DNA of 33,498 bases from Thermovibrio guaymasensis (GTDB lineage: Bacteria > Aquificota > Aquificia > Desulfurobacteriales > Desulfurobacteriaceae), in the NCBI RefSeq assembly GCF_003633715.1, contig NZ_RBIE01000001.1, forward strand, positions 547,833 through 581,330, given 5' to 3'. The translations under genes were made by a program, and so were the position numbers. The notes under the pieces are model-generated. The model did not search any database. It saw only the letters and a list, made by a program, of their open reading frames with translations, and was not told the DNA's origin. This document shows positions 5,360 through 31,440 of this stretch, piece after piece; positions within the stretch are counted from its first letter, which is position 1; each line of letters opens with the position of its first letter.

Positions 5360-5370
5360 TCCCATCACTC

Positions 5371-8107: not shown

Positions 8108-8117
8108 TCTCTACCCC

Positions 8118-9583: not shown

Positions 9584-10842
9584 TTCTTATCCTCTACCCT
9601 TTTTTCCTCTCCGCCCCAGAAGAGGAGGTTGTACCTTAAAATTAGCCTTAAGTCCCTGTCAAAGTCCTCGTTTTTCCTGTAGTCAATACCGAATTCAAAG
9701 TTTGAGAATTCCGTTGCTTGATAGGTTCCCTTTAGGTAGTAGGAGTTTGCCCACTGCTTCCCGTAGGTGACTTTGTCGTAGCGGGCTATGTCAACCCTTC
9801 CTGAAAGGGAGAGCTTCTCGCAGAGGTACTTTGTAAACCCAAGCTCAACTCCCCTTAAGATTCCTATCCAGCTGTTTTGATAGAGGAAAGCTCCGTAGGT
9901 CCTGAGGCCTTCAGAGAACCATGTATCCCTTATAGCTCCAACTTTAATAAGGTGGCCGTTGTCCTTGCCGTTTTTCTGAATGTCGGTTCCTGTGTATGAA
10001 CCAAACAGTGACCAGACTTTGTTAAGTTCGTAGTAGGTGCTCTGGGTAAAGCGGAGCTCCCTACCTTGAGAGGAGAAGTTTGAGAATATCGGGTCTTCAA
10101 TCCTTCCGGCGTAGTAGTAGGAACCGTCGTAGTACTCAACCTCTGTTGTTAACCTTAACTTCCTGTTTGGAAAGTAGTTAAAACCTAGGTTTCCATTCAG
10201 GAACTCCCCGTGGGCTAAGTCAAACTCAAGCCTGCTGAACTGTACCAGCTTCTTTGTTAGGTAGGAGTAGTTTCCAATTGAAATGGCGGTCTTTTTAACT
10301 TTCCCGTCGTCCCTTAAGTGTTCAAACCCAAAGAAGTAGTTTTTATATTCAAACTTAATACCGGTTAGGAAGTCGTCTCCGCTCTTAACTCCCGGCTCAA
10401 ACCACCTCGGTTTGCCGATGTAGAAGACGTATTTAAAGTCTTTGTTCAACCTGTAGGAGTACTTAATTGAATCTGCTATGTAGGTTTCAAAACCTTCGGA
10501 TATGAACTGACGACCTATTGAAAGGAGAGAGTTCCTGTCCTTCTTCAGGGGAACGTCAACGTACACCTGGTAAAGGTCTACGTCCCAGTCATTTCCGTAC
10601 CCTAAGTCTTTCCATAGCTTTCCGTAGAAGTGAAGTTCACTGTTGCCCTTTAAGTCCCTTATGTCAAGCTTTAGGTAGTTATCAAAGGGGATAGAATCCT
10701 TATCGTAAACGTCCTGGCGAAACTCTATCTGAGTTTTTACCTCTCCCTCGTATCCAGGTAGTTTAAGTGCGGCCAGCGAACCGCTGGTTGAGAGGAGTCC
10801 TATTCCCAGTCCCAGAGCTAAGGTTCTCTTTCCTATCCCCAC
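9580..10842 (-). CDS. Outer-membrane beta-barrel (porin-like) protein, first gene of the cytochrome operon
   Basis: A 420-residue protein with a signal peptide (MGIGKRTLALGLGIGLLSTSGSLAA) followed by alternating hydrophobic and polar residues typical of transmembrane beta strands, rich in Tyr and Phe, ending in a strand RLILRYNLLFWGG and a charged tail. Residues such as FRQDVYDKD and SIGRQFISEGFETYIADSIKYSY recall porin-like barrels. The size suggests roughly 16-18 strands, smaller than MtrB-type 26-28-strand barrels. The start is GTG at 10842 with AGAGGG about seven bases upstream; no ATG is nearby. It is the first gene after the promoter and is coupled to the haem lipoprotein by ATGA. It is probably the sheath that lets the lipoprotein or other cytochromes pass electrons across the outer membrane. 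No CXXCH is present. Confidence 0.82.
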   Translation of the reverse strand: MGIGKRTLALGLGIGLLSTSGSLAALKLPGYEGEVKTQIEFRQDVYDKDSIPFDNYLKLDIRDLKGNSELHFYGKLWKDLGYGNDWDVDLYQVYVDVPLKKDRNSLLSIGRQFISEGFETYIADSIKYSYRLNKDFKYVFYIGKPRWFEPGVKSGDDFLTGIKFEYKNYFFGFEHLRDDGKVKKTAISIGNYSYLTKKLVQFSRLEFDLAHGEFLNGNLGFNYFPNRKLRLTTEVEYYDGSYYYAGRIEDPIFSNFSSQGRELRFTQSTYYELNKVWSLFGSYTGTDIQKNGKDNGHLIKVGAIRDTWFSEGLRTYGAFLYQNSWIGILRGVELGFTKYLCEKLSLSGRVDIARYDKVTYGKQWANSYYLKGTYQATEFSNFEFGIDYRKNEDFDRDLRLILRYNLLFWGGEEKRVEDKK

Positions 10843-16561: not shown

Positions 16562-16726
16562 CTCCAATAAATCAAAAGGGGCCAGCCCCGAGCTTGGGAC
16601 TGACCCCTTTCAAAGAGAGGTTCCTTTCCAAGCTCGGGAGGCACGTCCGTTTCCAGACGCACCCTGTCGGCCTGGCCCCATAGGACTTTAGTCCCTTAGG
16701 AAGCCAGGCTCGGAACCTCCGCCTCC
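16562..16726 (-). ncRNA. Probable molybdenum-cofactor-type riboswitch upstream of modA
   Basis: The minus-strand leader is far more G+C-rich than its surroundings and folds strongly. Elements visible: GGAGG (16716-16720) with CCUCC (16637-16641) closing a multibranch domain; GCCTGGC with GCCAGGC, containing the inner hairpin GGACTAAAGTCC; a hairpin GCGTCTG-GAAA-CGGACGT with a GNRA tetraloop; and single-stranded CCGACAGGG between stems. Downstream, CCGAGCTTGG/CCAAGCTCGG (16628-16637 with 16588-16597) is mutually exclusive with a terminator stem. Position ahead of modABDC-moe genes fits the Moco RNA class (Moco or tungsten-cofactor sensing), known to control such operons. Class assignment rests on context and remembered features, not on a covariance-model search; a novel class is possible. 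Confidence 0.65.
16575..16610 (-). terminator. Conditional intrinsic terminator in the modA leader
   Basis: On the minus strand AAAGGGGTCAGTCCC pairs with GGGGCTGGCCCCTTT around the loop AAGCTC, giving 15 continuous pairs (two are G-U), followed by TTTTGATTTATT. Bases 14-23 of this hairpin are also the 3' arm of the alternative stem with 16628-16637, so the terminator and antiterminator cannot coexist. This is a standard riboswitch expression platform. Confidence 0.7.
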
Positions 16727-17395
16727 ATTATACACTAGATTTTCAATTACTAAAAGGCCGTCTCCCACTCCGATTAGGTAGCTTCTGAAGTTTGGATACT
16801 CTTTGACTTGATTTAGGAAGAGCCTAAGGAGGGCTACTGACCTTTCGTACCTTCTTTCATATTTCCTTCCTGCAACGTATCCCCTGAAGAGGACGTTATC
16901 AAATACTACCATCCCTCCAGGCTCTATCAGGGCCTGGACTTTGTAGTTGAAGAAGGGGTACTCTCCCTTTGTGCTATCAATGAAGATAAAGTCGTACTTT
17001 CTGCCTTCCGATAGTTCTTCCCTTATGAAGTCAAAGCCGTCCGACTCAACAACTTTTATGGATGCTTCGGCTCTTTTAAAGAAACTTCTTGCTACTTCAA
17101 GCCTTTTCCTGTTGGAGTCAACGGTTGTTACCTGAGAGGACCTATTTGCGAAGTAGATGTTTAACGTGCTGTATCCTATTCCCGTTCCTATCTCAAGAAC
17201 TTTTTTAGGCTTTAGCGTTGAAACTAACAGCCTTAGAAGTTGAGCGCTTGAAGGAAGGAGAATTGGAACCTTCTCCCTTTTTGCGTACTCTTCAATCTCT
17301 ATTAGTATCTCTTCCTTCTTTCCAAAGGAGCCTATGAACTCTTCAACTTCCTGGGGTAGAATTTCCCCTAAGTTTTTCCACCTTTTAAATTCCAT
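16688..17395 (-). CDS. SAM-dependent O-methyltransferase (catechol-O-methyltransferase-like)
   Basis: A 235-residue class I methyltransferase of the O-methyltransferase family 3 type. The SAM-binding motif I is VLEIGTGIGYSTLN, followed by the acidic strand end TVDSNRKR, motif DFIFIDSTKGEYP with metal-type Asp residues, and FDNVLFRGYVAG. Substrate is unknown; family members methylate catechols, caffeoyl-CoA or small phenolics. The ATG at 17395 has no clear ribosome site and lies close behind a possible TATAAT (17403-17408), so it may be leaderless. The last residues, GGGGSEPGFLRD, are low-complexity and are encoded by the start of the modA leader RNA, so they are probably not part of the fold. 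Confidence 0.85.
   Translation of the reverse strand: MEFKRWKNLGEILPQEVEEFIGSFGKKEEILIEIEEYAKREKVPILLPSSAQLLRLLVSTLKPKKVLEIGTGIGYSTLNIYFANRSSQVTTVDSNRKRLEVARSFFKRAEASIKVVESDGFDFIREELSEGRKYDFIFIDSTKGEYPFFNYKVQALIEPGGMVVFDNVLFRGYVAGRKYERRYERSVALLRLFLNQVKEYPNFRSYLIGVGDGLLVIENLVYNGGGGSEPGFLRD
16727..16732 (-). promoter_or_regulatory. -10 box (TATAAT) for the modA leader RNA
   Basis: A perfect TATAAT on the minus strand lies 7 bases before the first G-rich element of the leader and inside the last codons of the methyltransferase gene. No convincing -35 hexamer is seen 16-18 bases upstream (TTTTAG at 17), so the promoter may be activator-dependent or weak. It would make a transcript starting near 16720, exactly at the structured domain. 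Confidence 0.45.
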
Positions 17396-17721: not shown

Positions 17722-20235
17722 CTACTCCCACCTGTTCCCTGATACAACGCTTACACTTAGGGGAACAGAGAGCTTCACTACCCCTTCCATTACCTCCCTT
17801 ACTAGCCTTTTAGTTTCCTCTTCCTTTTCCTGGGGGGTTTCAACAACTATTTCATCGTGAACCTGGAGGACCATAAAGGAGTCTGTGCTTTGAAGTTCCC
17901 TATCAAGTTTAATCATTGCTAGTTTCATTACGTCTGCTGCAGTTCCCTGTATTACTGCGTTAACTGCAGCCCTTTTCCCGAAACTCCTTACGTGGTAGTT
18001 CCTATCTTTCAGTTCTGGAAGAGGTCTTTTTCTTCCAAAGAGCGTTGTTACAAAGCCTTTCCTGTAAGCTTCATCAAGGGTAGAGTCTATAAACTCCTTA
18101 ACCTTTGGAAAGTTTTTAAAGTACTTCTCTATAAACTCTTCAGCCTCTTTAAGTGGAATTCCAAGCCTCTCTGAAAGTCCGTGAGGGCTCATTCCGTATA
18201 TGATTCCGAAGTTAACCGTTTTTGCAACTCTCCTCATCCTTTCGTCAACCTCTTTAACCTCAAAGAGGTGTTTTGCAGTTTCAGAGTGTATGTCTTCTCC
18301 CTTTCTGAAAGCTTCTATTAACCTTTCATCCCCTGAAAGGTGGGCCAGTATCCTTAGTTCAACCTGGGAGTAGTCTGCCCAGACCAGCTTATAACCTTCT
18401 GGGGAAATTACTGCATGCCTTACCTTCTTTGATATCTCGTCTGAAACTGGAAGGTTTTGTAGGTTAGGTTCTGCTGAGGAGAGCCTTCCAGTTGCAGTTG
18501 CCGTTTGAAGGAACTTTGTATGAACTCTCCCTTGACTGTCAACGTACTTTAGTATTCCCTTTACAAAAGTTCCTTCAATTTTAGTTAACTTTCTGTAGAT
18601 AAGGAGGAGCTGGGCTATTCTGTGACCTTCTAAAGCTAAAGTTGTTAATGTTTCAACGTCCGTTGAGTAGCCTGATTTTGTCCTCTTTAGAGGTTTGAGC
18701 CCCAACTTTTCAAACAGGATTTTAGCAAGCTGCTTTGGTGAGTTAAGGTTAAAGGCTTCTCTGGCTATTTGGTATATCTTCTCCTCTATTCTTTCTGCTT
18801 CCTCCCTAAGTTCCTTTCCAAAAGTTTCAAGGTACTCCCTATCAAAGAGGACACCCCTCTTCTCCATTCTGTATAGGACGTAGGACAGGGGTTCTTCAAT
18901 CTCCCTGTAGAGTTTGTAGAGTCCCTCTTTCTTAAGCTTTTCCTCTGTAATCTGGCCAAGGGAGATTACGTGGTGGGAAATCTCCTTTAAAGGTGGAAGT
19001 TCGGCACTTTTTAGGTGTTCCTTCAGTAAGTTCTCCGGAGAGTAGTCCTTTAAAAGAGGGTTCAGTAAATAGTATCCCAGTGATATGTCAAAGAGGGGGA
19101 GCTCCCTCATCTCCTGACCGCAATTGTGGTAGATATCCTTTAAGTTGAAGGTGTAGAGTTTTACTCTTCCTCGTTCTTTTAGTTTGGGTAGGACTTCTTT
19201 CAGCGGAATTACCGTAAAGTATTTCCCGGCAGAGAGTATAGCCTCATCTCCTCTTACTATTAGTCCTCCGGCCGGCTGAGAGAAGAGGTCTTTAGGTGCG
19301 AGTAACTTTAAGATCTCAGTTAGGTCTTTCTCTTTCCCCTTCTCAATTTCGCTTCCCTTTAGTTCTAAATTTGGGAAAATTTTCTTTAGCTCCTTTGCAG
19401 TACTTCTCATTTCAAGTTCAGTTAAGAGTTCCGATAGGCACTTACCGTCTGGTGGTTTAACCTTTAACTCCTCTGGAGAAATCTCTACTGGAACGTCTTT
19501 CTTAACTTTTGCAAGCTCTCTGCTGAGGAATGCCTGTTCTTTGAACTTTTTTAAAGTTTCCCTTCTCTTTGGAGTGAGCTTTTCAAGGTTTTTGTAGAGT
19601 TCTTCAAGGTTTCCAAATTCCCGAATTAGTTTTACGGCAGTTTTTTCCCCAATTCCTGGAACTCCCGGTATGTTGTCAATCTGATCTCCTGATAGGCCGA
19701 AGACCTCAGGAATTTGCCAAGGTTCAATTCCATACTCCTTTTTGAACTTTTCAAGGTCGTAGAGTTTCTGACTTCCCCTGTGTGAGATTGAGATGACCTT
19801 TACGTTCTCTCCAATTAGCTGTCTCATATCCTTGTCGGACGTGACTATGAAGACCTCAAAGCCTTCCTTTGAGAGCTTATCAGCTAGAGTAGCAATTACG
19901 TCGTCTGCTTCGTAACCTTCAACCTCCAAAACCTTTATCCCTAGACACTTCAGGAACTTCTTTATGTAGGGAAGTTGCACTTTAAATGCATCGGGAGTCG
20001 GTTTCCTGTTTGCCTTGTAACTCTTTAAGATTTCATTTCTAAAGGTCTTCTTGCCAACGTCAAAGGCGACGGCTGCGTACTCAGGTTTAAAGTCCTTAAG
20101 TAGCTTTAGGAAAATCCTTATAAATCCAAAGATTGCGTTCGTTGGGAAACCTTTACTGGTTGAAAGGTTCCTTATTGCGTAAAAGGCCCTATAGGCCATT
20201 CCTGTTCCGTCAAAGAGGAATACCCTTTTATTCAA
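17722..20235 (-). CDS. polA: DNA polymerase I with inactive-looking proofreading domain
   Basis: An 837-residue family-A DNA polymerase, about the size of Taq polymerase. The N-terminal 5' nuclease (about 1-285) is complete: DGTGMAYRAF, YEADDVIATLA, VTSDKDMRQL and GLSGDQIDNIPGVPGIGEKTA. The polymerase domain (about 430-837) has motif A DYSQVELRILAHLSGD, motif B RRVAKTVNFGIIYGMS and motif C VLQVHDEIVVE. The middle 3'-5' exonuclease-like region (about 290-430) lacks the acidic DxE of Exo I and has NLKD instead of the Exo II NxxxD, so proofreading is probably lost, as in Taq. Start is TTG at 20235, with GGAG six bases upstream inside the end of murC. It acts in repair and Okazaki-fragment processing. 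Confidence 0.96.
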   Translation of the reverse strand: MNKRVFLFDGTGMAYRAFYAIRNLSTSKGFPTNAIFGFIRIFLKLLKDFKPEYAAVAFDVGKKTFRNEILKSYKANRKPTPDAFKVQLPYIKKFLKCLGIKVLEVEGYEADDVIATLADKLSKEGFEVFIVTSDKDMRQLIGENVKVISISHRGSQKLYDLEKFKKEYGIEPWQIPEVFGLSGDQIDNIPGVPGIGEKTAVKLIREFGNLEELYKNLEKLTPKRRETLKKFKEQAFLSRELAKVKKDVPVEISPEELKVKPPDGKCLSELLTELEMRSTAKELKKIFPNLELKGSEIEKGKEKDLTEILKLLAPKDLFSQPAGGLIVRGDEAILSAGKYFTVIPLKEVLPKLKERGRVKLYTFNLKDIYHNCGQEMRELPLFDISLGYYLLNPLLKDYSPENLLKEHLKSAELPPLKEISHHVISLGQITEEKLKKEGLYKLYREIEEPLSYVLYRMEKRGVLFDREYLETFGKELREEAERIEEKIYQIAREAFNLNSPKQLAKILFEKLGLKPLKRTKSGYSTDVETLTTLALEGHRIAQLLLIYRKLTKIEGTFVKGILKYVDSQGRVHTKFLQTATATGRLSSAEPNLQNLPVSDEISKKVRHAVISPEGYKLVWADYSQVELRILAHLSGDERLIEAFRKGEDIHSETAKHLFEVKEVDERMRRVAKTVNFGIIYGMSPHGLSERLGIPLKEAEEFIEKYFKNFPKVKEFIDSTLDEAYRKGFVTTLFGRKRPLPELKDRNYHVRSFGKRAAVNAVIQGTAADVMKLAMIKLDRELQSTDSFMVLQVHDEIVVETPQEKEEETKRLVREVMEGVVKLSVPLSVSVVSGNRWE

Positions 20236-21571
20236 TTCCTTCTCCCGTATAGAGTTTAAAGAAGTTTGTTACGTCTCCTGCTCCCAAAGTAAGGAGAACG
20301 TCTCCTGGTAAGAGCTCCCTCCTTAATACCTCTACCGCTTCTTTTAAGCTTCCGCAGTAGAGAGCTCCAACCTCCTTGGCCAGTGTCTCTGCCGTTATTC
20401 CCTCAATTGGCCTCTCTCCTGCAGGGTATATATCGCAAATATAGAGGTTATCTATTCCTTTGAGAACCCTTACGAACTCCTTCCACAGAGCGGCAGTTCT
20501 TGTGTATCTGTGGGGCTGAAAGAGGATAACTATTCTCCTATCTGGAAAGGCTTCTTTAATTGCCCTGTAGGATGCCTCAATCTCGGTAGGATGGTGTCCG
20601 TAGTCGTCAAAGAAGGTAATTCCGTTGTAACTTCCTTTAAGTTCCATTCTCCTCCTTGCGTTCCTAAACTCTTCAAGACCCTGGGCTATCTCGTTAAAAG
20701 GAATTCCTACTTCAAGGGAAACGGCTACTGCTCCAAGGGCGTTGACGACGTTGTGCCTGCCCGGAACGTTTAACTTTACCCTGCCTAGTTTCTTCTCCCT
20801 GTAAAGGACTTCAAATACAGTTCCAAGACCTAAAGGAGTGATATCCTTAGCCTGAAAGTCTGCATCTTTTGAAAGGCCGAAGCTGTTTTTCCTCTTGTAG
20901 ACTTTCTGGTAAATGTCCCGTGTATTTTCGCAGTCTATACATGCAAAGAGTTTTCCGTAGAAAGAGGTCCTGTTTGCAAACTCTAAAAAGGCTTCCTTTA
21001 TGTTTTCTAGACTTCCGTAGTAGTCTAGGTGGTCGGCATCAATGTTCGTTATTACCGATAGTGTTGGGTTGAGCTTTAAAAATGTTCCGTCGCTCTCGTC
21101 AGCCTCTGCAACCAGCCACTTCCCCTCTCCCTGAACGGCGTTGTATCCGCCTAAGAAAGAAAGGCTTCCTCCAACTAAGATTGTCGGCTTTAAACCTGCT
21201 CCGTAAAGTATCCTTGAGATCATAGAGCTTGTCGTCGTTTTCCCGTGAGTTCCTGCAACTGCTATGCTTTCCGTTAACTTCATTATGTCAGCAAGGACGT
21301 CTGAGCGTGGGATTACCGGTATACCTCTTCTTTTAGCCTCTTTTATCTCAGGGTTATTCTCCCTAACTGCCGATGAGTGGATTAAGACGTCTGCTCCTTC
21401 AACATTTTCGGCTCTGTGGCCTATAAAAACTCTTATTCCTTTATCCCTAAGTTTTTTTACCATTATTCTTTCTTTTATATCAGAACCTTGAACATCAAAT
21501 CCTCTATCCTTTAGGATTAGGGCAATTCCTGACATTCCAATTCCGCCAATACCAACTATGTGTACTTTCAA
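20228..21571 (-). CDS. murC: UDP-N-acetylmuramate--L-alanine ligase MurC
   Basis: A protein of about 447 residues that adds L-Ala to UDP-MurNAc in peptidoglycan precursor synthesis. Mur ligase features: N-terminal Rossmann motif VHIVGIGGIGMSGIA, ATP-binding VAGTHGKTTTSSMI, EADESDGTFL, TNIDADHLDYYG, PGRHNVVNALGAVAV and the C-terminal DDYGHHPTEIEA plus LFQPHRYTRT. The HxGIGGxG and DDYGHHP motifs mark MurC rather than other Mur ligases. The frame is open to a TTG at 21583, but GGAGG is five bases before the second TTG at 21571, giving the normal N-terminus MKVHIVGIGG. It overlaps polA by 8 bases, an uncommon operon partner. Confidence 0.96.
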   Translation of the reverse strand: MKVHIVGIGGIGMSGIALILKDRGFDVQGSDIKERIMVKKLRDKGIRVFIGHRAENVEGADVLIHSSAVRENNPEIKEAKRRGIPVIPRSDVLADIMKLTESIAVAGTHGKTTTSSMISRILYGAGLKPTILVGGSLSFLGGYNAVQGEGKWLVAEADESDGTFLKLNPTLSVITNIDADHLDYYGSLENIKEAFLEFANRTSFYGKLFACIDCENTRDIYQKVYKRKNSFGLSKDADFQAKDITPLGLGTVFEVLYREKKLGRVKLNVPGRHNVVNALGAVAVSLEVGIPFNEIAQGLEEFRNARRRMELKGSYNGITFFDDYGHHPTEIEASYRAIKEAFPDRRIVILFQPHRYTRTAALWKEFVRVLKGIDNLYICDIYPAGERPIEGITAETLAKEVGALYCGSLKEAVEVLRRELLPGDVLLTLGAGDVTNFFKLYTGEGIE

Positions 21572-21615
21572 CGTCTCCTCCAAGTAAAATTTCCTATTAA
21601 GTTTCAGGGGGTGGT

Positions 21616-22560
21616 ATGGATTTTACATTAGTTACAGGAGGAGCAGGCTTTATAGGTTCCCACCTAGTCGAAGAGCTCCTATCTCAGGGAAGAATAGTAG
21701 TGGTTCTTGACGATTTATCAACGGGAAAAAGGAAAAACTTGCCAGAGAGTCCAAATCTCATCTTTGTTGAAGGCTCTATAGCTGATAAGGAAATCCTAAA
21801 AAGACTTTTCTCCGAGTACAGGTTCTCAACTGTCTTCCACCTTGCCGCAGTTGCTTCCGTTTACCACTCTATTGAGGAGCCCCTTTACTGCCATCAGGTC
21901 AACTTTGATGGAACACTCTACCTCCTTGAAGAGTCAAAAAGGGTAGGCGTTGAGAAGTTCATCTTTGCCTCATCTGCTGCTGTTTACGGCGATTTACCGG
22001 AGCTCCCAAAGAGGGAAAATATGGCCGTTAAGCCTCAAACTCCTTATGCCGTTGATAAATACGCCTCCGAAAGGTATACGGTAAACTCTTTTAACCTTTA
22101 CGGCCTTGATGCTACAGCTTTAAGGTTCTTTAACGTTTACGGTGAAAGGCAGGATCCAACTTCTCCTTACTCTGGAGTTATTTCAATCTTTATTGAGAGA
22201 ATTAGGAGGTTTCAAAGAGGAGAAAGTGTGATTATTGACATCTACGGTGATGGAAAGCAGACGAGGGATTTCGTTTACGTTAAGGATGTCGTTAGAGCTC
22301 TCTTATTGGCAGAGGAGAAGCAAACTGCCGGCGAAGTTTATAACGTTGGGACAGGTGTGGAAACTTCTCTTCTTCACCTCCTAGAAGTTTTAAGAGAAAT
22401 TGCTGGTGAGATTCCCCCTGTTCGTTTTCTGCCTTCCCGTCCTGGAGATATAAAACGTTCAGTTGCTGATATTTCTAAGATTTCACAGATAGGGTATAGT
22501 CCTTCCTATTCCCTTAAAGAAGGATTGGAAAGGCTTTGGAAATGGGTAACTAGAACTTAG
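21616..22560 (+). CDS. NAD-dependent sugar-nucleotide epimerase (UDP-glucose 4-epimerase-like)
   Basis: A 314-residue extended short-chain dehydrogenase. The NAD-binding motif is TGGAGFIGSHL (residues 7-17), with D32 at the end of beta-2. The catalytic set is S119/S120 in FASSAAVYG and the YxxxK pair Y144-K148 (YAVDKY). RFFNVYGERQDP and the C-terminal RPGDIKRSVADISK are typical of GalE/WbpP-type epimerases. It likely interconverts UDP-Glc and UDP-Gal or their N-acetyl forms. It starts with GGGGGTGG just before the ATG and converges on the glycosyltransferase gene with an 11-base overlap of coding ends. The neighbourhood suggests it may supply sugar for that enzyme; exact substrate is unknown. 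Confidence 0.88.
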   Translation: MDFTLVTGGAGFIGSHLVEELLSQGRIVVVLDDLSTGKRKNLPESPNLIFVEGSIADKEILKRLFSEYRFSTVFHLAAVASVYHSIEEPLYCHQVNFDGTLYLLEESKRVGVEKFIFASSAAVYGDLPELPKRENMAVKPQTPYAVDKYASERYTVNSFNLYGLDATALRFFNVYGERQDPTSPYSGVISIFIERIRRFQRGESVIIDIYGDGKQTRDFVYVKDVVRALLLAEEKQTAGEVYNVGTGVETSLLHLLEVLREIAGEIPPVRFLPSRPGDIKRSVADISKISQIGYSPSYSLKEGLERLWKWVTRT

Positions 22561-23875
22561 TCTTCCTTGCTATCCATGGAGGAACGTATCCGGTTCTTCT
22601 GTGGGCGTCAAAGAAAGCTTCATCAATGTAGGCATACAGTGCGTTAAGCCTTAGTACTAGTGCGTATATTGGGAATAAAAAAGTGTAAGGTATAAGCTTA
22701 ACGTCCCAGTTTTTCCTTTCCGATATTAGGACAACAAAGAAGAGTATTAAAAAGAACGTGTGGAGTGCGTAGATAAGGTAGATAAAGGTTATTATGGCCA
22801 GAACTTCAAGGAGTGAAAACTGAAGGAACAACTTGATGTAGTAAAGGAGTATAAAAACTGGGAGGGCAAAATTTTGAATTAAGACTAAGTAGTAAGTGTA
22901 TAAGGCCTCTCTCCAGCCGACGATTTTTGGATTAAGTGCCCACGTGTGTTTTTTAAAGTACAGGTAAACGAGGTCACCGTCCCACCTTTTCCTCTGTTTT
23001 AAAATTCCTGTCCAGGTTTCAGGGCCGTCTGTTAAGCCTATTGCATCGTAGGCAAACCCCAACTTTATGTCCGGATAAAGGTTTCTGTACTTTTTAAACC
23101 TAAGCGTTAGGTCTAGGTCTTCTGCCGTACCAGCATCCCAACCTCCAAGACCGTTTAAGAAGTCAGTTTTGAATATCCCGAAAGCTCCTGATATGTTGTT
23201 TATGAGACCCAAGGCGTCTAAAAACTGTTTTGCCATGTAGATTGATATCGCGTACTCTATTGCCTGAAATTTCGTTACTATGGTTTTATTCCAGTTCCTT
23301 ATTCTTAAGTTTCCCGAAAGTGCAACTAGCCTTTCATTGCTAAAGTGGGACACAGCGTTTTTTATCATGTCCCTATCGTAAGAGGTATCTCCATCAAGGG
23401 CCAGTGTGATTTCACCTTTTGCGAAGTTTAATCCAAGGTTAAGGGATGAAGCTCTTCCTCCCCTTTCCCACTTTGGAATTACCAAAATTTCCTTATTTCC
23501 ATGGATTCCTTCATATTTCCTCGCTACCTCGTAAGTTTCCCTGTTCTGTTTTGCACCGTCAACGATAACTATTACCTGAATATAACCTCGGTAGTTCTGT
23601 TCAAGCATTGATTCAATAGAGTTCTTTACAGATTTTCCTTCGTTGTAAGCTGTAATAAGAACGCTTACAGGAGGTGTCCAATCTCTTCTTTTCCTTTCAA
23701 AGAGGCCAAAGGTGACTTTTAGGGTTAGTACTATTACCATTCCTGCTGCTAAAGGGAAATCAAAGAGTAAGTAAGGGAGGATTAAAATTATCTTTTCATA
23801 TAAGTTTGTGTTAAGGATGATGTTTGATAGATATGTGAATACTGCGTAGATGTAGTTTCCTAGGAATTCTATCAT
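22550..23875 (-). CDS. Processive family-2 membrane glycosyltransferase (BcsA/NodC-like)
   Basis: A 441-residue inner-membrane GT2 enzyme. The N-terminal helix pair (about residues 25-58) is followed by the GT-A domain with D106 (VIVIVDGAKQ), the DxD motif D161-G-D163, the catalytic ED pair at 252-253 (TAEDLDL) and Q294-R-K-R-W298, the QxxRW signature of processive enzymes such as cellulose and chitin synthases. Four or so C-terminal helices (about 320-410) can form the translocation channel. No PilZ domain is present, so cyclic-di-GMP control would need a separate protein, possibly the upstream gene. It overlaps that gene as ATGA and is last in a five-gene operon. Product: a beta-linked polysaccharide is likely; the sugar is unknown. 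Confidence 0.9.
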   Translation of the reverse strand: MIEFLGNYIYAVFTYLSNIILNTNLYEKIILILPYLLFDFPLAAGMVIVLTLKVTFGLFERKRRDWTPPVSVLITAYNEGKSVKNSIESMLEQNYRGYIQVIVIVDGAKQNRETYEVARKYEGIHGNKEILVIPKWERGGRASSLNLGLNFAKGEITLALDGDTSYDRDMIKNAVSHFSNERLVALSGNLRIRNWNKTIVTKFQAIEYAISIYMAKQFLDALGLINNISGAFGIFKTDFLNGLGGWDAGTAEDLDLTLRFKKYRNLYPDIKLGFAYDAIGLTDGPETWTGILKQRKRWDGDLVYLYFKKHTWALNPKIVGWREALYTYYLVLIQNFALPVFILLYYIKLFLQFSLLEVLAIITFIYLIYALHTFFLILFFVVLISERKNWDVKLIPYTFLFPIYALVLRLNALYAYIDEAFFDAHRRTGYVPPWIARKTKF

Positions 23876-25287
23876 TTTTCCATCTCTTTAAAGAGTTCTT
23901 TAACTACCTCTTCTGCTGATAGATCAGTTATTCCCTTATCTGTACATATATAACTCTCTTTAAACTCAATTTGATCAGTTAGATTGTTCACTTTAAGTAA
24001 TCTCTCTACCTGTTCTGCAATTCTCTTCACTACTACTTTAGCTCCTTCTGGTGGAGTTTCAGGAAGGAGTATCAGAATGTACCTCCTCTCTGAAGAGCTT
24101 ATTATGTCGGAGCTCCTTAAGTTTTCTTTTATAATAGATACGAGGTCTTTAAGAAAGAGTTTAACTTTTGTTGGTGCTTCAGTTATGGCTTCCTCCTTTA
24201 CTGTAAGCTTTAACCCTAAAACACAAAAGGTCCTTTCGGGATATCTCTTGGCCAGTTTAAGGAACTTATCAAGTATGTATATGAAGAGGTTAAAGCCTAT
24301 TACGCCTAGCTGAACGGAGAGCTCTTCAAATATATTAAGCGGGAACTTTCCTTCTGCTGCAACTAACTTTCCAAAAGGAGTTAAAATGTAGGTATTAACA
24401 GTTTCCTCCTTTATGTTTTCTGGTGGAAAGGTTTTTGAACAGTTAGCGCATAGTACACTTATGTCAGGTTCAATGAATACGCTTTTACACTCGTCACAGA
24501 TATACTTTTCAAGAGGTTTATCGTAATCTACTCCTATGTGTTTAAGCTCTTCGTGGCACTTTGGACAGATTAATTTGTCTCCGACCTGAAACTCACTTGC
24601 TGGACCTATGTATCCACAGGAGTAGTGGTGTATGAACTCTTCAAGTCTAATTTTTACTGAGCCGCAGTTAGGGCAAATCTCCCTTAGAATTAGGTTATAG
24701 TAACCGCAAAAAGGGCATAGGGATGTTTTATTTTCTATTTCTGTTGAGAAGATTTTTTGCCTCTTCATCAGCTCTAAATCTTCAAGTTCCCTACCTTTTT
24801 CCTCCTTTCTTAAGATTGTTTTTGCTTCAGGCCAGAAAAAGCCGATAACAGAATTTCTGTTTAGTACTGGTGAAATTTCCTCTATCTTCCTTGTAACTAA
24901 GAACCTTAGTAAGTTCATTCTCCAGTTTTCAGGTAGAGTCGTTGCATAAGGATTAGGTACGAGTTTCTCTATTGTTTCCCATATCTCTCTAGCTTTTTCA
25001 ATAGATTCGTTTGATAGGGAAGCTTCAACTCCATCAACGAGTTTTTTAAATTCTGGAGATGGTTCAAGGTTCGAAAAGAGGGGAGATAAGGAACTTTCAG
25101 GTTCTCTACGCAGGACCTCTATGGCTCTATCAACGAACTTCCTGTTCTTGGCTTCAACGAAGAAGAGGTGAGGTGATCTGAAAAGTCCCATTTTATTAAC
25201 TTCTATTAAAGCTTCTTCAGGTTTAGGGAAGATTAATCCTTCACTTTTCTTTGCTCCTTGAAGTATTATTATCTTCGTTATTTCCAT
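23872..25287 (-). CDS. TackOD1-like zinc-ribbon protein with degenerate GGDEF domain
   Basis: A 471-residue cytoplasmic protein. The N-terminal 180 residues are not recognised. Residues about 186-315 hold CxxC pairs at C191/C194, C205/C208, C241/C244, C264/C267 and C280/C283 with HHYSCGY (220-225) and IGVDYDKPLEKYICDEC, matching the TackOD1 metal-binding output domain. Residues about 350-470 resemble a GGDEF fold (FCVLGLKLTV...LLPETPPEGAKVVVKRIAEQVERL). The active motif is lost (SERRY at 399-403), but RSSD (391-394) sits where the RxxD inhibitory site is found. It may thus bind c-di-GMP without making it, like PelD in the Pel system. It overlaps both neighbours (47 and 4 bases). Function is inferred. 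Confidence 0.75.
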   Translation of the reverse strand: MEITKIIILQGAKKSEGLIFPKPEEALIEVNKMGLFRSPHLFFVEAKNRKFVDRAIEVLRREPESSLSPLFSNLEPSPEFKKLVDGVEASLSNESIEKAREIWETIEKLVPNPYATTLPENWRMNLLRFLVTRKIEEISPVLNRNSVIGFFWPEAKTILRKEEKGRELEDLELMKRQKIFSTEIENKTSLCPFCGYYNLILREICPNCGSVKIRLEEFIHHYSCGYIGPASEFQVGDKLICPKCHEELKHIGVDYDKPLEKYICDECKSVFIEPDISVLCANCSKTFPPENIKEETVNTYILTPFGKLVAAEGKFPLNIFEELSVQLGVIGFNLFIYILDKFLKLAKRYPERTFCVLGLKLTVKEEAITEAPTKVKLFLKDLVSIIKENLRSSDIISSSERRYILILLPETPPEGAKVVVKRIAEQVERLLKVNNLTDQIEFKESYICTDKGITDLSAEEVVKELFKEMEK

Positions 25288-25963
25288 TTTCTACTCCTAA
25301 GTAATTTAGTACTGATAGAGCTCTTTCTTTGGCAAGGATAATATTAGACTTTACCTTTGCTTTTACAATTTTTGTTGAATCAGCATATCCGATTACTTTT
25401 AGGTTACAGACTTTTATTAGTGGTTTAATTTCATCTAAGATGAGTTTAGCCTTGCTATCTAGTTGGTAAGAACCTTTTTGGAAAAAAATAGGAATTTTAA
25501 AAGAAATTGTGTTTTTTTCATCTATTTTAGGTGCTAAAAGAGAATCTTTATTTTCCTTTAATTTTACTGAATACTTCAAAAGATATTCCTTTTGAGGATT
25601 TAAGTTTTTTATTTGGAGTTCTCCGTTCCTAAAAGGTAATTGAGCAATCTGTTTGATAGTATTATTTTCTTTAATCTCAAATAGCTCAGCTGTACTTGAT
25701 AGCTCTTCTCCTTTACGGGTAGGTTGTTTTAAGACAAATTCTTTCCCTGGGAAAGTTATCTCAACGTTAATTTTTAGACCTAACCTTTCAACGGTTAAAG
25801 AGTACTTTCCTGAATCTTTAAAGGAGCACTTAAAGATAACCTCAGCCCTTCTTCCTAAATCTCCCTTTACTTTAAGAACTTTGTACTCAACTTGAGCTCC
25901 TAAAGAGCTTGAGTTTAAGCTTAGGAATATAAACAGTAACGGGAAGATTCTCATAGAGCTCAT
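25241..25963 (-). CDS. Periplasmic protein with OmpA-C-like (peptidoglycan-binding) domain
   Basis: A 240-residue protein with a signal peptide (about 23 residues, MSSMRIFPLLFIFLSLNSSSLGA). Residues about 24-150 are beta-rich and unrecognised. Residues about 155-225 resemble an OmpA C-terminal domain: FFQKGSYQLDSKAKLILDEIKPLI, KVIGYADST and LAKERALSVLNYLGVE. Start ATG at 25963 has GAGG six bases upstream. The gene overlaps the adaptor gene by 77 bases and the zinc-ribbon gene by 47, unusually long for this window. OmpA-C domains hold envelope machines to the cell wall, so it may anchor the proposed polysaccharide export complex. The lysine- and asparagine-rich tail is encoded within the overlap with the next gene. 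Confidence 0.7.
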   Translation of the reverse strand: MSSMRIFPLLFIFLSLNSSSLGAQVEYKVLKVKGDLGRRAEVIFKCSFKDSGKYSLTVERLGLKINVEITFPGKEFVLKQPTRKGEELSSTAELFEIKENNTIKQIAQLPFRNGELQIKNLNPQKEYLLKYSVKLKENKDSLLAPKIDEKNTISFKIPIFFQKGSYQLDSKAKLILDEIKPLIKVCNLKVIGYADSTKIVKAKVKSNIILAKERALSVLNYLGVENGNNEDNNTSRSKEK

Positions 25964-27068
25964 TTCCTTCCTCTTTTAACCTGATTTCTATTTCTCCGTG
26001 AAGATCTCTCTTTTCTAGAGGTCCTACTAAAAACGGAGGCTTTAATTTTAGATTTGGTTTGATTTTGACTATATTTCCTTTCAAAATCTTTCCTGAAGGT
26101 AGTTTTACCAGAGCTTCATCTCCTAGCTTAATCTCTGTTAGAACTTTAGATGGAATGTAAACTATAACTTTATAACTGTTTTCTTTAATTAATTCAACAA
26201 CTTTCTCGCCGGTATTTATCGTTGAGCAGGAAGGGAATACAAAGGACACTTTTGCAGGAAAGGGAGCTTTTATTAGCTGAACGCTTTCCGACTTTAACCT
26301 TTCTAATTGTGCTTTTGTCTGTTCAATTTGGGTGTCAATTGAAGTGATTAATGGTAGAAATGGGTTAGGTGGTGTCCCAGTCTTTGATAAGTATATAGCT
26401 TTTTTTAATTCTTCTTCTTTAGTTGTTAGTTCTATCTGAATTCTTTCTTTTTCTCTGATTAAATTTTTTAAATTATTCCTGAGTAAGTTTATGTCGTAAA
26501 GTGTTGCGTAGCCTTTGCTCAGAAGTTTTTTGACTTTATTAAGTCTACTTTCTAGTTCTCTTTCTTCCTTTTCAATTTGAATCAACCTTTTTTTAAGTAT
26601 TGATATTTCTTTTTTTACACTTTGAGGAGAATTAACTCTTAAAGTTGTAAGAATTTTGTCTTGCTTTGCCTTCCTAGCCCCTTCTTTAATAATTTCCTGT
26701 TTTATTTTTTTAAGCTTTTTTATCTTCTGAATTAAAGCTTCTATTTCCTTTTCCCTTGAAGAATTTTTTATTATTCCAATTACCTTTCCTTTCTCTACTT
26801 TATTTCCCACTTTAACGTAAGACTCAAATTTACCAGAGATGGTAGAGTAAATTACCGATTTATCGGATTCTATTATTCCTGTAAATCTGTACGTGAAAAA
26901 CTCTTTAAAAAGAACTATTAGGATCCCTATAAATATGAAAAAACTGGCAACTCTTAAAAACCACTTCTTGGCCCTTGAAGGAGGTAAGGGAGGTGGATGT
27001 TCAACTTCAAGAGGAGTAGGGGCTCTAAAACGTTCTCTTAAGCTTTTAGAAATTGAGAACCTTTTCAT
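25887..27068 (-). CDS. HlyD-family membrane fusion (adaptor) protein
   Basis: A 393-residue protein with a proline-rich cytoplasmic N-terminus (PPPLPPSRAKKW), a single transmembrane helix at about 37-57, then the HlyD layout: half-lipoyl GIIESDKSVIYSTISGKFESYVKVGNKVEKGKVIGII, a long Lys/Glu coiled coil at about 95-260 and the return half-lipoyl PFPAKVSFVFPSCSTINTGEKVVELI, then a beta-barrel/membrane-proximal domain to the end. Such adaptors link an inner-membrane transporter with TolC. The partner here seems to be a glycosyltransferase, as in Alg44-like and some cyanobacterial polysaccharide systems, since no ABC or RND pump lies nearby. Overlaps TolC-like gene as ATGA. No PilZ domain is seen. 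Confidence 0.87.
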   Translation of the reverse strand: MKRFSISKSLRERFRAPTPLEVEHPPPLPPSRAKKWFLRVASFFIFIGILIVLFKEFFTYRFTGIIESDKSVIYSTISGKFESYVKVGNKVEKGKVIGIIKNSSREKEIEALIQKIKKLKKIKQEIIKEGARKAKQDKILTTLRVNSPQSVKKEISILKKRLIQIEKEERELESRLNKVKKLLSKGYATLYDINLLRNNLKNLIREKERIQIELTTKEEELKKAIYLSKTGTPPNPFLPLITSIDTQIEQTKAQLERLKSESVQLIKAPFPAKVSFVFPSCSTINTGEKVVELIKENSYKVIVYIPSKVLTEIKLGDEALVKLPSGKILKGNIVKIKPNLKLKPPFLVGPLEKRDLHGEIEIRLKEEGNELYENLPVTVYIPKLKLKLFRSSS

Positions 27069-29209
27069 CTGACTACAATTTCCTCTGGAAGGGTTTTAGC
27101 GTCTAAGAAGACCAACTTAAACTTCCTTCTACTTTCCTTCTCTTCTTCCAAGTAAATTCTAAAGTCCGTTAGGTTTTGAACAGCCACACTTTTTATTCCT
27201 TCCATTTTTATCATATTAACAGCTTTTATAAATTCTACCCTTGGCCTTTTAAAGAAGGACTGACTGGGGGGAAGTTCTTTTTCAACTGATAGGGATATTA
27301 AAACAGGTTTAAGCTCTTTTAATGAAAGCTGCGCGTACTCGGAAGCTTTTCTCTTTAAGTAATTGATGTTGGTTGAGTAACACATTACGTTTATACCGTC
27401 TGCAATTTCTAGAACGGTTTCCGTAAGGCTTGTTTCATCGTACTTGATTCTATCGTACTGAGGTGATACGTCAACAAATACTGGTTTTTCGCTTAAGTCT
27501 TTTACTTGGTTAAGGGTTTCCAAGTAGAGGTTTACTAGCTTTTCTTTTGAGGTTTTCCACTGAGGAAGGGCATGAGGTTCAATATCAAGGTGAAGAGCGG
27601 AAAAACCGTTAATTCCTGCGTAATCGTTGAACCTGTTAAATAGATTAACAATTTTTAAGAGCTTTTGTCTATTTTGGGTAAATATCCAGCTGTTTTCTCC
27701 TAAGAGTAGCTGAAGTTCTATACCTTCATTGTGGGCACTCTCTATAAACATCTTAAGTTCTCTCCAACCCTCTAAGTTTCCTAGGAATTTATTTAACTGC
27801 TTTTCATTTAAAGACATGTATATCGTTCCAATGTTTAGTTTTTTTACTTCTTTTATGAATTCAATTTCTCTTTTAAAGTTCCCAAGTACGTTATCTGTTT
27901 TCCACCAGTAAGCGTGAAGTTTTCTAGAGACAGAGACGTGCTCCTTTCCTCTTAGAAACTCTTTCTCAGTTAACCCTTTTAGTGCAAAAAGAGCTTGAAC
28001 AACTTTTCTTTCACTATCAAGGAGGGAAACTTTAATTGAAAAGAGTTCAGAGGTTAGTAGGGCTTCTTTAAGATAGCTGTCAGTCCCCCCGGTAAGTCCT
28101 GCCTCTCTTCTCAGCTGAAGGGTTTTAAGTGCTTCTTCTTTTTCCTTTAGGGACGCCTTTAAGCTTTTAACTCTTTCCTGATAGATAAGGGCGTTTCTGT
28201 AAGGAATTTGAGATGCTGTGATTAGGGCGTAATTTGCTATTTTCGCTCTAAGGAGTTCTCTCTGAGCCCTGAGGATTTTCTCTCTGTGGAGTTTCTCCGT
28301 TAGGTTTTTACTGTTAAGAGGCATTGAGAGGGTAAAGGAGACGCCGATTCCTTTTTGAAAATCTCCAATTTCTTTATCGGTTATCCCTCCGGTGAACGTA
28401 AACCAGCCGGTAAGGAGGCTTTCTCCTTTTTGGGAACTCTCCCTTAGAACTTTAAAGGCTTCCTGTAAAAGTTTTATTTCCTTAAGTTGAAGGGCATCCC
28501 TATAAATTTCTGTAGGGTCGGGGATGTAAGCTTCTTCAGGGTTTCTTATTTCAAGAAAAGGTTTAAAGTGAGGAAAGTTTGGCTTTCCTATTAGTTCTCT
28601 TATTGTTGCGAAGGCTTTCTCCTTTTTCTCTTTAAATATTCTTTTTGTAGTTTCTATTCCTATTAGGTTTGATTCAACTGATAGGAGCTCTGACCAGAGG
28701 GCGAGTTTTTCTTCAAATCTTTTCCTCAGTACGTCTTTAATAATGAGTAACTGATTAATACTTTCCTCTGCCAAGTTTTCCATTTTGCCGTAGTAATAGT
28801 AATCTGTATAAGCTTTCCTTAGTTTAGTTAGCAGTTTCCTCTTTAGGAAAAAAAACTCAGCCTCTTTTTCAAGGATTAGGGCTTTAAGAGCAGCTTTTTT
28901 GATAAAGGTTTTCTTTATTACGGGAACTTTTATAGATGTTGACAAACCATACCTGTATCCTGAAACTTCTTTTGCATATTCTTCCGATGGGAAATAGGTG
29001 GCTGTTACTGACAGTTGGGAACTCTTCCTTTCCTCTCTTATATACTCAAGGCTTCCTTTCAATATCTCAATCTCTTTCTCCTTCTCAAGGAGTACAGGAT
29101 TAGACCTAATTAGAAGTTCCTCAAGATAACTTAAGCTTATTGTTTTCCCGCTTGCTGTTAGCGTTAGGATTGCCGTTATGAGAAACAGGTTTAAAATTAT
29201 GCTCTTCAT
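27065..29209 (-). CDS. TolC-like outer-membrane channel fused to a glycosidase-like TIM-barrel domain
   Basis: A 714-residue protein with a signal peptide (about 21 residues). Residues about 25-425 follow the TolC/OEP pattern: long amphipathic helices in two repeats separated by beta strands (SQLSVTATYFP, YGLSTSIKVPV; and GWFTFTGGITD, GVSFTLSMPLN). Residues about 428-700 form a second domain resembling GH18/GHL-type TIM barrels: LHAYWWKTDN, NIGTIYMSLNEKQL, GIELQLLLG, then FSALHLDIEPHALPQW with D542 and E544 as candidate catalytic acids, VFVDVSPQYD and GINVMCYST. Typical TolC proteins have only 420-480 residues. The C-terminal domain would face the periplasm, where polysaccharide-processing enzymes of other systems act. 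First gene of the operon; ATGA overlap with the adaptor. Confidence 0.82.
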   Translation of the reverse strand: MKSIILNLFLITAILTLTASGKTISLSYLEELLIRSNPVLLEKEKEIEILKGSLEYIREERKSSQLSVTATYFPSEEYAKEVSGYRYGLSTSIKVPVIKKTFIKKAALKALILEKEAEFFFLKRKLLTKLRKAYTDYYYYGKMENLAEESINQLLIIKDVLRKRFEEKLALWSELLSVESNLIGIETTKRIFKEKKEKAFATIRELIGKPNFPHFKPFLEIRNPEEAYIPDPTEIYRDALQLKEIKLLQEAFKVLRESSQKGESLLTGWFTFTGGITDKEIGDFQKGIGVSFTLSMPLNSKNLTEKLHREKILRAQRELLRAKIANYALITASQIPYRNALIYQERVKSLKASLKEKEEALKTLQLRREAGLTGGTDSYLKEALLTSELFSIKVSLLDSERKVVQALFALKGLTEKEFLRGKEHVSVSRKLHAYWWKTDNVLGNFKREIEFIKEVKKLNIGTIYMSLNEKQLNKFLGNLEGWRELKMFIESAHNEGIELQLLLGENSWIFTQNRQKLLKIVNLFNRFNDYAGINGFSALHLDIEPHALPQWKTSKEKLVNLYLETLNQVKDLSEKPVFVDVSPQYDRIKYDETSLTETVLEIADGINVMCYSTNINYLKRKASEYAQLSLKELKPVLISLSVEKELPPSQSFFKRPRVEFIKAVNMIKMEGIKSVAVQNLTDFRIYLEEEKESRRKFKLVFLDAKTLPEEIVVR

Positions 29210-29268: not shown

Positions 29269-31440
29269 ATGCCGATTCTCCTTGATGGTATTTACGATGG
29301 AAAGAAGCTTTATAGGGAGCTCCGTCACCTTGGTCTTAGGAAGCACGACGTTAAGGAGGTCTTTGTTGCCAACGGTAAGACTTTGATTTACCTAAAGGAC
29401 GACTCCTTGAGCGGAGTTTACCCTGAGCTCCAGCCCTCTCCTGAAGAGGAAAGGGAGATTAAAACTGTTCACAACTACGTTGAGAAGTTTAAGTACCTGA
29501 TTGACCTTGAAAGGCTCTCTGAGATTGGGTTTCAGGAAGAGGAGATAAGGAGGTTATCGGGTAGGGAAAGGGAACTCCTTGGAAGGGCAATCCTTGACCT
29601 TAAGGGAAGTAGAGCTGGAACTAAGTTCCACCTCCACCTTGTAAGGTTCTGGAGGGAAAAGCCTATAGAGACTGAGATATCAACTGGGGACGTTGTCCTT
29701 GTAAGTAAGGGAAATCCTCTAAAGAGCGACCTCCTTGGAACTGTTGTGAGGATAACGGAAAAGACGATTACCGTCGCCTTTGACAACCGTCCACCAAACT
29801 GGGTTTATAAGAAGGGCGTTCGTGTTGACCTCTACGTTAACGATGTAACCTTTAAGAGGATGGAGGAAAACCTAGAGGAGCTCCGCCATGCCGTTGGAAG
29901 GCAAAGGGAGATTAGGAACGTAATAGTTGGTTTAGAGGAACCAAAAGCTGTTACTGAAGCTGTTGAATTTGAGCCCTTTGACTCAAGGCTGAACGAAACC
30001 CAGAAAAGGGCCGTTTCACTAGCCCTTGGAGCTCCAGACTTCTTCTTAGTTCACGGTCCTCCCGGAACTGGGAAGACGAGTACTGTAACTGAGTTAATCG
30101 TTCAACTTGTAAAGGAGGGAAAGAAGGTTCTTGCGACTGCAGATTCAAACATTGCCGCAGATAATATCCTCCTTAACCTATCAAAGTACCCTGAACTTAA
30201 ACTGGTTAGAATAGGTCACCCTGCAAGGGTTCTTGAGGAGCTTGAGAAGTTTTCAATTTACGCTCTCTTTGAGGAGCACGAAAAGAGTTCAAAAGTGAAA
30301 GAGGGTTGGGAGAGAGTTAAGGAACTTATAGATAAGAGAGATCAGTTTACGAAACCTACTCCTTCCCTCAGGAGAGGAATGAGCGACGAGGAGATAGTTT
30401 ACTTCGGAAGAAAGGGAAAGAGCTTTAGGGGTGTTCCTAAGAAAGTTATGCACTCCATGGCAAACTGGATTTTAACCAACTACGAAATTGATGTAAGGAT
30501 AAAGGCCCTTAAGGAGATGGAATCTATTATCTACAGGGAGATTATTGCTGACGCTGACGTTGTTGTATCAACGAACTCAATGGTTAAGTCGGAGCTCCTT
30601 GAAGGCTTCCACTTTGACGTTGCAGTTATAGACGAGGGAAGCCAGCAGGTTGAACCTTCAACCCTTATTCCGATCATGAGGGCCGATAAGTTCTACATTG
30701 CAGGTGATCACAAGCAACTTCCCCCCACTGTTATGAGCGAGGAGGCAAAGGAGCTTGAGAGGACCCTTTTTGAGAGGTTGATAGAGAAACATAGGGCGCT
30801 CTCAACGATGCTCACTGTTCAGTACAGGATGAATGAGAAAATTATGGAGTTTCCAAGTAAGGAGTTCTACGAAGGTAAGTTGATTGCCGCCCCTGAAGTT
30901 AAGAACCATACCTTGAAAGATTTATGCGTAAGTGAGCCTGAAAAGTTTAAAGAGGTCCTTGATCCTGAGCTACCACTTGCCTTTGTTGATACTTCAAACA
31001 TAAACGCTTACGAGTTCCAGCCTAAAGGTTCAACTTCCTACGAAAACTATGAAGAGGCAAAGCTTTCGGTTGAGATTGCACACCTCCTTTACAGGATGGG
31101 GCTTGATAGGAGGGATATAGGAATCATTACTCCCTACGCTGCCCAGGTTAAGCTCATAAAACAGCTCCTCATAGAGAAGGAATTAAAAGTTGAAGTAAAC
31201 TCAGTTGATGGCTTCCAGGGTAGGGAAAAGGAGGCAATCATTATTAGTTTCGTTCGTTCAAACGATGAAGGAGAGATAGGCTTCCTTAGGGATTTAAGGA
31301 GGTTGAACGTAGCAATAACCAGGCCAAGGAGAAAACTGATAGCCATAGGAAACTCAAAGACCCTCAGCAACCACGAAACCTATAAAAAGTTTATAGATTA
31401 CGTTAAGGAGAAGGGAAAGTTTTACTCCCTTAAAGGCTAA
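29269..31440 (+). CDS. IGHMBP2-like superfamily 1 DNA/RNA helicase
   Basis: A 723-residue Upf1-like SF1 helicase. Motifs in order: LNETQKRAV (Q-like), Walker A GPPGTGKT (263-270), VVVSTNSM (Ic), [12 protein letters not shown] (II, DEGS), AGDHKQLPP (III), [14 protein letters not shown] (IV), [32 protein letters not shown] (V) and [17 protein letters not shown] (VI). The N-terminal 230 residues contain an OB/SH3-like region ([12 protein letters not shown]...GTVVRI...VAFDNRPP) as in archaeal and bacterial IGHMBP2 relatives. It likely works in nucleic-acid repair or RNA processing. It is divergent from the polysaccharide operon and its stop overlaps that of the next gene by four bases. More G+C-rich than the operon to its left, so it seems native. 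Confidence 0.92.

Follow-up and report, generated by a model that had tools for sequence, protein, structure and literature searches.

A five-gene cassette in the genome of Thermovibrio guaymasensis very probably encodes a synthase-dependent exopolysaccharide (EPS) machine that exports its product through an HlyD adaptor and a TolC channel. The cassette lies in a window of 33,498 nucleotides, which is the whole stretch of DNA analysed (G000:C1:547833-581330, contig NZ_RBIE01000001.1), in a genome of 1.62 Mb. Direct support comes from the gene content, the predicted folds, the gene order shared across phyla, the mobility of the cassette, and, at one chromosomal site, its exchange for Pel or alginate-like genes. 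EPS synthesis with HlyD/TolC export had been proposed in an initial annotation of this DNA, and linkage counts and an EPS swap site now support it. The core consists of four genes, encoding a fusion of TolC with a glycoside hydrolase (TolC-GH), an HlyD adaptor, a TackOD1-GGDEF protein and a family 2 glycosyltransferase (GT2), and it is widespread in many phyla. Beyond this, we infer the identity of the polymer, a direct coupling of channel and synthase, the binding of cyclic di-GMP (c-di-GMP) and the role of the hydrolase.

The cassette comprises five tightly spaced minus-strand genes (22550-29209) that converge with a GalE-like epimerase gene between two border genes:

27065-29209, minus strand: TolC-GH fusion (Pfam OEP, 1.3e-11; AlphaFold2 model and Foldseek)
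25887-27068, minus strand: HlyD-family periplasmic adaptor (HlyD_3, 28.9 bits, cut-off 22.2, E 2e-6)
25241-25963, minus strand: OmpA-C-like secreted protein (PF00691, 33.0 bits, cut-off 27.2, E 7.6e-8)
23872-25287, minus strand: TackOD1 and degenerate GGDEF protein (PF18551, 174.8 bits, cut-off 32)
22550-23875, minus strand: processive-type GT2 synthase (PF13641, 2.3e-21; PgaC_IcaA, 142.9 bits)
21616-22560, plus strand: GalE/PelX-like nucleotide-sugar 4-epimerase (GalE, 217.8 bits)
20228-21583, minus strand: murC, left border of the swap site
29269-31440, plus strand: helicase-family gene, right border of the swap site

Open reading frames and family matches agree with the five genes facing an epimerase that the initial annotation had described, and the coordinates are exact. 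Adjacent cassette genes overlap by 4-77 nt, so a single operon is likely; promoter and terminator scans of the locus yielded no more than scans of shuffled sequence. The claimed lack of ABC, RND and Wzx/Wzy genes was borne out for the operon and its immediate borders by the open reading frame list and Pfam scans.

To follow the cassette beyond the window, an alignment of TackOD1-GGDEF proteins was scanned against a collection of species genomes; the search patterns lie within TackOD1, and the neighbouring genes were therefore not selected for. The 44 loci recovered belong to Aquificota, Desulfurellales, Aminicenantes, Fibrobacter, Bacteroidota (including Crocinitomix isolates), Fodinibius, Rhodohalobacter, Omnitrophota, Cloacimonadota, Pirellulales and Gammaproteobacteria. 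Most of them have the order TolC-GH, HlyD, TackOD1-GGDEF, GT2; gammaproteobacterial loci show this order, TackOD1-GT2-TolC-GH-HlyD, or TackOD1-GT2-HlyD. The recurrence of one gene order in phyla that are not related shows that the locus is more than a chance assembly. Neighbourhoods were counted for all 49 TackOD1 genes flanked on each side by 4.5 kb or more, taking as nearby anything within four genes. GT2 adjoins 45 of the 49, HlyD is nearby in 46, TolC/GH in 36, and all three in 34. Thus, the glycosyltransferase keeps company with adaptor and channel elsewhere, an association on which the initial annotation had staked its reading.

Of the five genes of the window, it is the four-gene core that recurs across phyla. 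The OmpA-like protein has a shortened OmpA domain (the Pfam match covers only positions 1-64 of 98), and its gene is present in three cassettes, those of the window, the congener G001 and the relative G021. It was rejected as a core part, being absent from most cassettes, and the "wall anchor" that had been counted as part of the machine is therefore a lineage accessory.

The cassette is horizontally mobile. TackOD1 scores above its cut-off in only 5 of 101 relatives, and the G+C content of the cassette is 36.5%, compared with 44.1% for the rest of the window and 43.0% for the epimerase. In the midpoint-rooted GT2 tree, the window clade joins a gammaproteobacterial B/C group with support of 100/100, and the cassettes of G007, a member of the same family, and of one Hydrogenothermaceae genome join Desulfurellales. 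As the window clade and the G007 cassette fall apart in this tree, the family probably acquired the cassette at least twice. Plasmids carry it too: pKAM329_3 of Aeromonas caviae, a mobilizable 29-kb plasmid, holds TackOD1-GT2-TolC(GH)-HlyD (L133:7674-13505), a plasmid of Plesiomonas shigelloides holds TackOD1-GT2-HlyD, and a plasmid of Rhodobacteraceae M382 holds TackOD1-GT2-HlyD-galE.

The strongest evidence for a role in polysaccharide production is the chromosomal site, a slot in which one EPS system is exchanged for another between relatives. It was located in relatives through orthologues of the helicase, which are 77-82% identical. The site is empty in G004, G005 and G010, where murC directly abuts the helicase gene; in the window and the congener G001 the same junction holds the epimerase and the cassette. 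In the congener G002 it holds the epimerase followed by PelC-like, PelD, PelE-like, PelF, PelG and PelA genes, an unnamed gene and PelB, with PelF scoring 551.7 bits and PelG 417.8 bits. In a third congener, G003 (L206:9155-15924), the helicase gene lies beside an alginate-like set, in which an AlgG-like gene (153.7 bits) is accompanied by genes for a nucleotide-sugar dehydrogenase, a GT2 and a protein with an HlyD domain. Another genus has a clp-rsmE-macro-epimerase context. It is followed by a short secreted PelC-like gene at the contig end in G013, by a stretch containing PelG in G018 and by the cassette in G021; in G016, pdxA comes directly after it. Furthermore, of the 56 relatives that lack the cassette, 26 have PelG, and of the 5 that carry it, none does; the window genome has no PelG match, and the locus has no GT4/PelF match.

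The initial annotation had included the epimerase in the set. Among the same-family genomes listed besides G001, orthologues occur in 12 of the 17 others, many of them without the cassette, and the gene adjoins Pel genes in at least two, G002 and G008. It was thus rejected as a cassette gene and is a companion of the EPS site. PelX-type enzymes produce UDP-N-acetylgalactosamine for Pel (PMC9135694). Since the epimerase is common to Pel sites, this function suggests, by analogy, that the polymer made by the cassette is of the hexosamine type.

The GT2 protein retains intact motifs (D106, D161/D163, AEDLD at 251 and QRKRW at 294) and four predicted transmembrane segments by hydropathy. These D, D, ED and QRKRW residues with four membrane segments agree with the description of an inner-membrane polysaccharide synthase (PMC7112194), which is its predicted activity. 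Its best NCBIfam match, PgaC/IcaA, lies below the equivalog cut-off of 422.3 bits, as does that to CelA (22.3 bits, cut-off 699.1), and Pfam detected no PilZ match in the operon. The HlyD adaptor has one N-terminal transmembrane helix by hydropathy (36-54).

The channel with a built-in hydrolase, as initially proposed, is recovered in the predicted structure. The TolC-GH protein carries a signal peptide, a TolC-type channel (residues ~23-415) and a (beta/alpha) barrel resembling glycoside hydrolase family 18 (GH18; ~430-690). Its AlphaFold model, with a mean predicted local distance difference test (pLDDT) score of 84.2, shows a TolC protomer with four strands and long helices, then the barrel. 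Foldseek gave TolC as the best PDB match for the model (1.2e-13) and the GH18 chitinase 6k7z for the barrel (2.6e-5); a PDB sequence search found no match. The GH18 Pfam match is weak (E 0.063, 13.4 bits, below the cut-off of 29.6), and the G021 homologue reaches E 4.6e-4. Across 29 homologues, H540, D542, E544, P545, M609 and Y611 are nearly invariant, and H540-x-D542-x-E544-P with M609-x-Y611 forms the putative active site. The canonical DGxDxDxE motif is incomplete, with D-x-E and M-x-Y conserved and His at the upstream Asp position, a pattern consistent with a GH18-type active site that carries a single Asp-to-His substitution. The predicted barrel would correspond to the periplasmic modification enzyme of synthase-dependent EPS systems (PMC7112194). 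Stand-alone hydrolases occur near the cassette in Desulfurellales (L026) and Methylocystis (L138), and in G007 the fused hydrolase has lost D-x-E (L020:10366-12393) and an intact separate copy lies elsewhere (L022:7069-7881); for these reasons hydrolase activity appears to be wanted, whether fused or separate. As a separate observation, a secreted 303-aa protein follows TackOD1-GT2-HlyD in one gammaproteobacterium (L111:10971-11882) and resembles, by eye, a GH16-type hydrolase.

The regulator is a soluble protein, with no transmembrane segment, in which zinc ribbons with CxxC motifs precede a degenerate GGDEF domain (Pfam E 0.0037). Its type had been recognised correctly, and the zinc ribbon can now be named TackOD1. 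The function of this domain was termed obscure in 2018, when fusions of a receiver domain (REC) with TackOD1 were described in archaea (PMC5847659). Among 68 homologues, 11 cysteines are 96-100% conserved, GG(D/E)EF is kept in none, and the inhibitory-site motif RxxD is kept in 51, including the window protein (R391-D394). The C-terminal part of the model (AlphaFold2, pLDDT 89.9) matches GGDEF structures. PelD, in which the GGDEF domain is also inactive, binds c-di-GMP through its RxxD motif (PMC7112168), and MxdA, described as degenerate GGDEF, acts as an effector of c-di-GMP (PMC7666153, PMC3409153).

With 13 GGDEF matches in its genome, the window host probably has c-di-GMP at its disposal, and the nucleotide control initially suggested is plausible there. 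A regulatory subunit that binds c-di-GMP belongs to the published definition of synthase-dependent EPS systems (PMC7112194), and the TackOD1-GGDEF protein is a plausible candidate for it. It is not general: Crocinitomix catalasitica (G103), Rhodohalobacter (G104) and a Sediminibacterium metagenome-assembled genome (G109) carry the cassette and have 0 GGDEF matches at E<=1e-10. With no detectable diguanylate cyclase in these three hosts, c-di-GMP control was rejected as a universal rule, and their regulators must, judging from gene content, act in a c-di-GMP-independent way. On a Roseibium plasmid (L137:5047-9294), a receiver-like domain precedes TackOD1 in a protein annotated as a response regulator; GT2 and HlyD come next, and Hpt genes lie close by. 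This fusion suggests two-component input to the synthase and echoes the archaeal REC-TackOD1 proteins (PMC5847659).

Shewanella mxdABCD is the closest characterised system and is likely homologous. It encodes a degenerate-GGDEF effector (MxdA), a GT2 (MxdB) and an efflux-pump homologue (MxdC) in one operon and is required for three-dimensional biofilm (PMC3691769, PMC7666153, PMC3409153). Gammaproteobacterial cassettes share the TackOD1-GT2-HlyD order with mxdABC, as compared by published description. In contrast, the window has the order TolC-GH, HlyD, OmpA-like, TackOD1-GGDEF, GT2 with TolC-GH encoded within the operon, and MxdD, described only as a conserved hypothetical protein (PMC3691769), has no described counterpart in the cassette. 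The system had been called new; its core idea stands, but mxdABCD has like parts and probably the same origin.

Other systems share some of these parts. Pel likewise has a degenerate-GGDEF receptor with RxxD, a glycoside hydrolase and an epimerase neighbour, and in a congener it sits at this very junction, but the cassette has no PelF GT4, PelG, PelE or PelB tetratricopeptide repeat (TPR) barrel, its synthase being GT2 and its exit HlyD/TolC. The cyanobacterial XcsA-XcsB(HlyD)-TolC cellulose scheme, itself a model, also joins a GT2 synthase, an HlyD bridge and a TolC channel, but its synthase is BcsA-type with PilZ, its TolC lies outside the operon, and it has neither TackOD1 nor a TolC-GH fusion (PMC12430437). 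In Zymomonas BcsZ-BcsC, a hydrolase is fused to an outer-membrane polysaccharide pore, but the parts are a cellulase and a TPR barrel instead of a GH18-like domain and TolC (PMC7112194). The outer-membrane pore with its TPR domain, part of the definition of synthase-dependent EPS secretion (PMC7112194), is missing from the operon, which has no TPR protein or porin and encodes a TolC-type pore and HlyD in its place. The accessible portion of that 2020 survey lists five such systems and leaves HlyD, TolC and Mxd unmentioned. In the literature consulted, no description was found of a TolC-hydrolase fusion or of an EPS system combining HlyD, TolC and a degenerate GGDEF protein.

Several alternatives can be set against this reading. 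It is unlikely that the GH18-like domain cuts peptidoglycan, opening the wall for the long channel with help from the OmpA-like protein, instead of editing the polymer. GH18 relatives do act on glycans containing N-acetylglucosamine, the OmpA-C-like domain belongs to a type that binds peptidoglycan, and TolC assemblies cross the wall; nevertheless, the OmpA-like gene is missing from most cassettes, known synthase systems carry polymer-cleaving hydrolases, and BcsZ-BcsC offers a precedent for a hydrolase-pore fusion (PMC7112194). Full independence from Mxd, with the likeness to mxdABC reflecting convergent part types, is improbable. Degenerate GGDEF domains serve PelD and other systems as well, the texts found do not name TackOD1 in MxdA, and Mxd was compared by published description only, but the TackOD1-GT2-HlyD order of gammaproteobacterial members, including Plesiomonas and Photobacterium, is that of mxdA-mxdB-mxdC (PMC3691769, PMC3409153).

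HlyD and TolC serve many exporters, and their coupling to the synthase is our inference, so the GT2 might make a glycolipid or periplasmic glycan beside an independent, co-transcribed efflux or peptide exporter. The absence of ABC, RND and MFS genes from the cassette, the co-occurrence across phyla and the site shared with Pel and alginate-like loci make this very improbable. Likewise, a peptide or drug exporter was rejected on the lack of a pump gene and the consistent GT2 linkage; type I secretion and RND efflux do not describe an operon that, with its immediate borders, has no ABC or RND pump gene. A divergent poly-N-acetylglucosamine (PNAG; Pga/Ica) or cellulose (Bcs) operon is hardly credible: the best GT2 match is to PgaC_IcaA and the hydrolase, as in PNAG systems, would act on hexosamine, but the PgaC and CelA cut-offs are missed and the operon has no PgaA TPR-porin, PgaB, BcsB, BcsC or PilZ.

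Some observations weigh against the EPS machine itself. The channel is not always linked, as some gammaproteobacterial and alphaproteobacterial TackOD1-GT2-HlyD operons have no adjacent TolC. At the swap site, the G003 contig ends before murC, so that the junction is seen from the helicase side only, the G021 genome is only 83% complete, and the exclusion of PelG reaches P ~0.05 in a hypergeometric calculation by hand that ignores kinship. Crocinitomix keeps RxxD in a host with no detectable GGDEF proteins; hence retention of RxxD alone is no proof of c-di-GMP binding. Finally, cassette members are known from genes and predicted folds alone, and the sugar and linkage of the polymer are provisional, as the GT2 lies below the PgaC cut-off and the hydrolase below that of GH18.

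In the proposed EPS machine, the inner-membrane GT2 would polymerise a UDP-sugar into a beta-linked chain, whose unit is most likely an N-acetylhexosamine, and the growing chain would cross the inner membrane. HlyD would span the periplasm to a TolC trimer, and the GH18-like barrel at the channel may trim or edit the polymer. The cytoplasmic TackOD1-GGDEF protein would switch or scaffold the synthase, in the window host probably via c-di-GMP at RxxD, and the neighbouring epimerase could supply UDP-N-acetylhexosamine.

Elsewhere in the window, a multihaem cytochrome cluster (1884-10842, minus strand) encodes an 890-aa protein with 24 CXXCH motifs, others with 3, 6, 7 and 7, a cytochrome b561 and a secreted protein of 420 aa with no Pfam match; by its sequence, it looks like an outer-surface electron conduit. 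A molybdenum/tungsten riboswitch (RF01055, 79.1 bits; 16605-16727, minus strand) heads a block with an ABC ATPase, MoeA and a MoCF-domain gene.

The chances are about even that the cassette represents a further class of synthase-dependent EPS secretion across many phyla. In such a class, HlyD and a TolC fused to a hydrolase would stand in for the TPR-barrel exit, and the orphan output domain TackOD1 would serve as a dedicated synthase regulator, kept even without detectable c-di-GMP synthesis. If the proposed reading is true, the cassette adds a compact form of synthase-dependent EPS production with a different exit route and gives TackOD1 a testable job. It would also supply an exit route for Shewanella Mxd, for which the literature consulted describes none, and would place within one operon the HlyD-TolC route that, for cyanobacterial cellulose, exists only as a model. 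For the Desulfurobacteriaceae, the swap site is a clean experiment of nature: entire biofilm machines have taken each other's place beside a shared epimerase.

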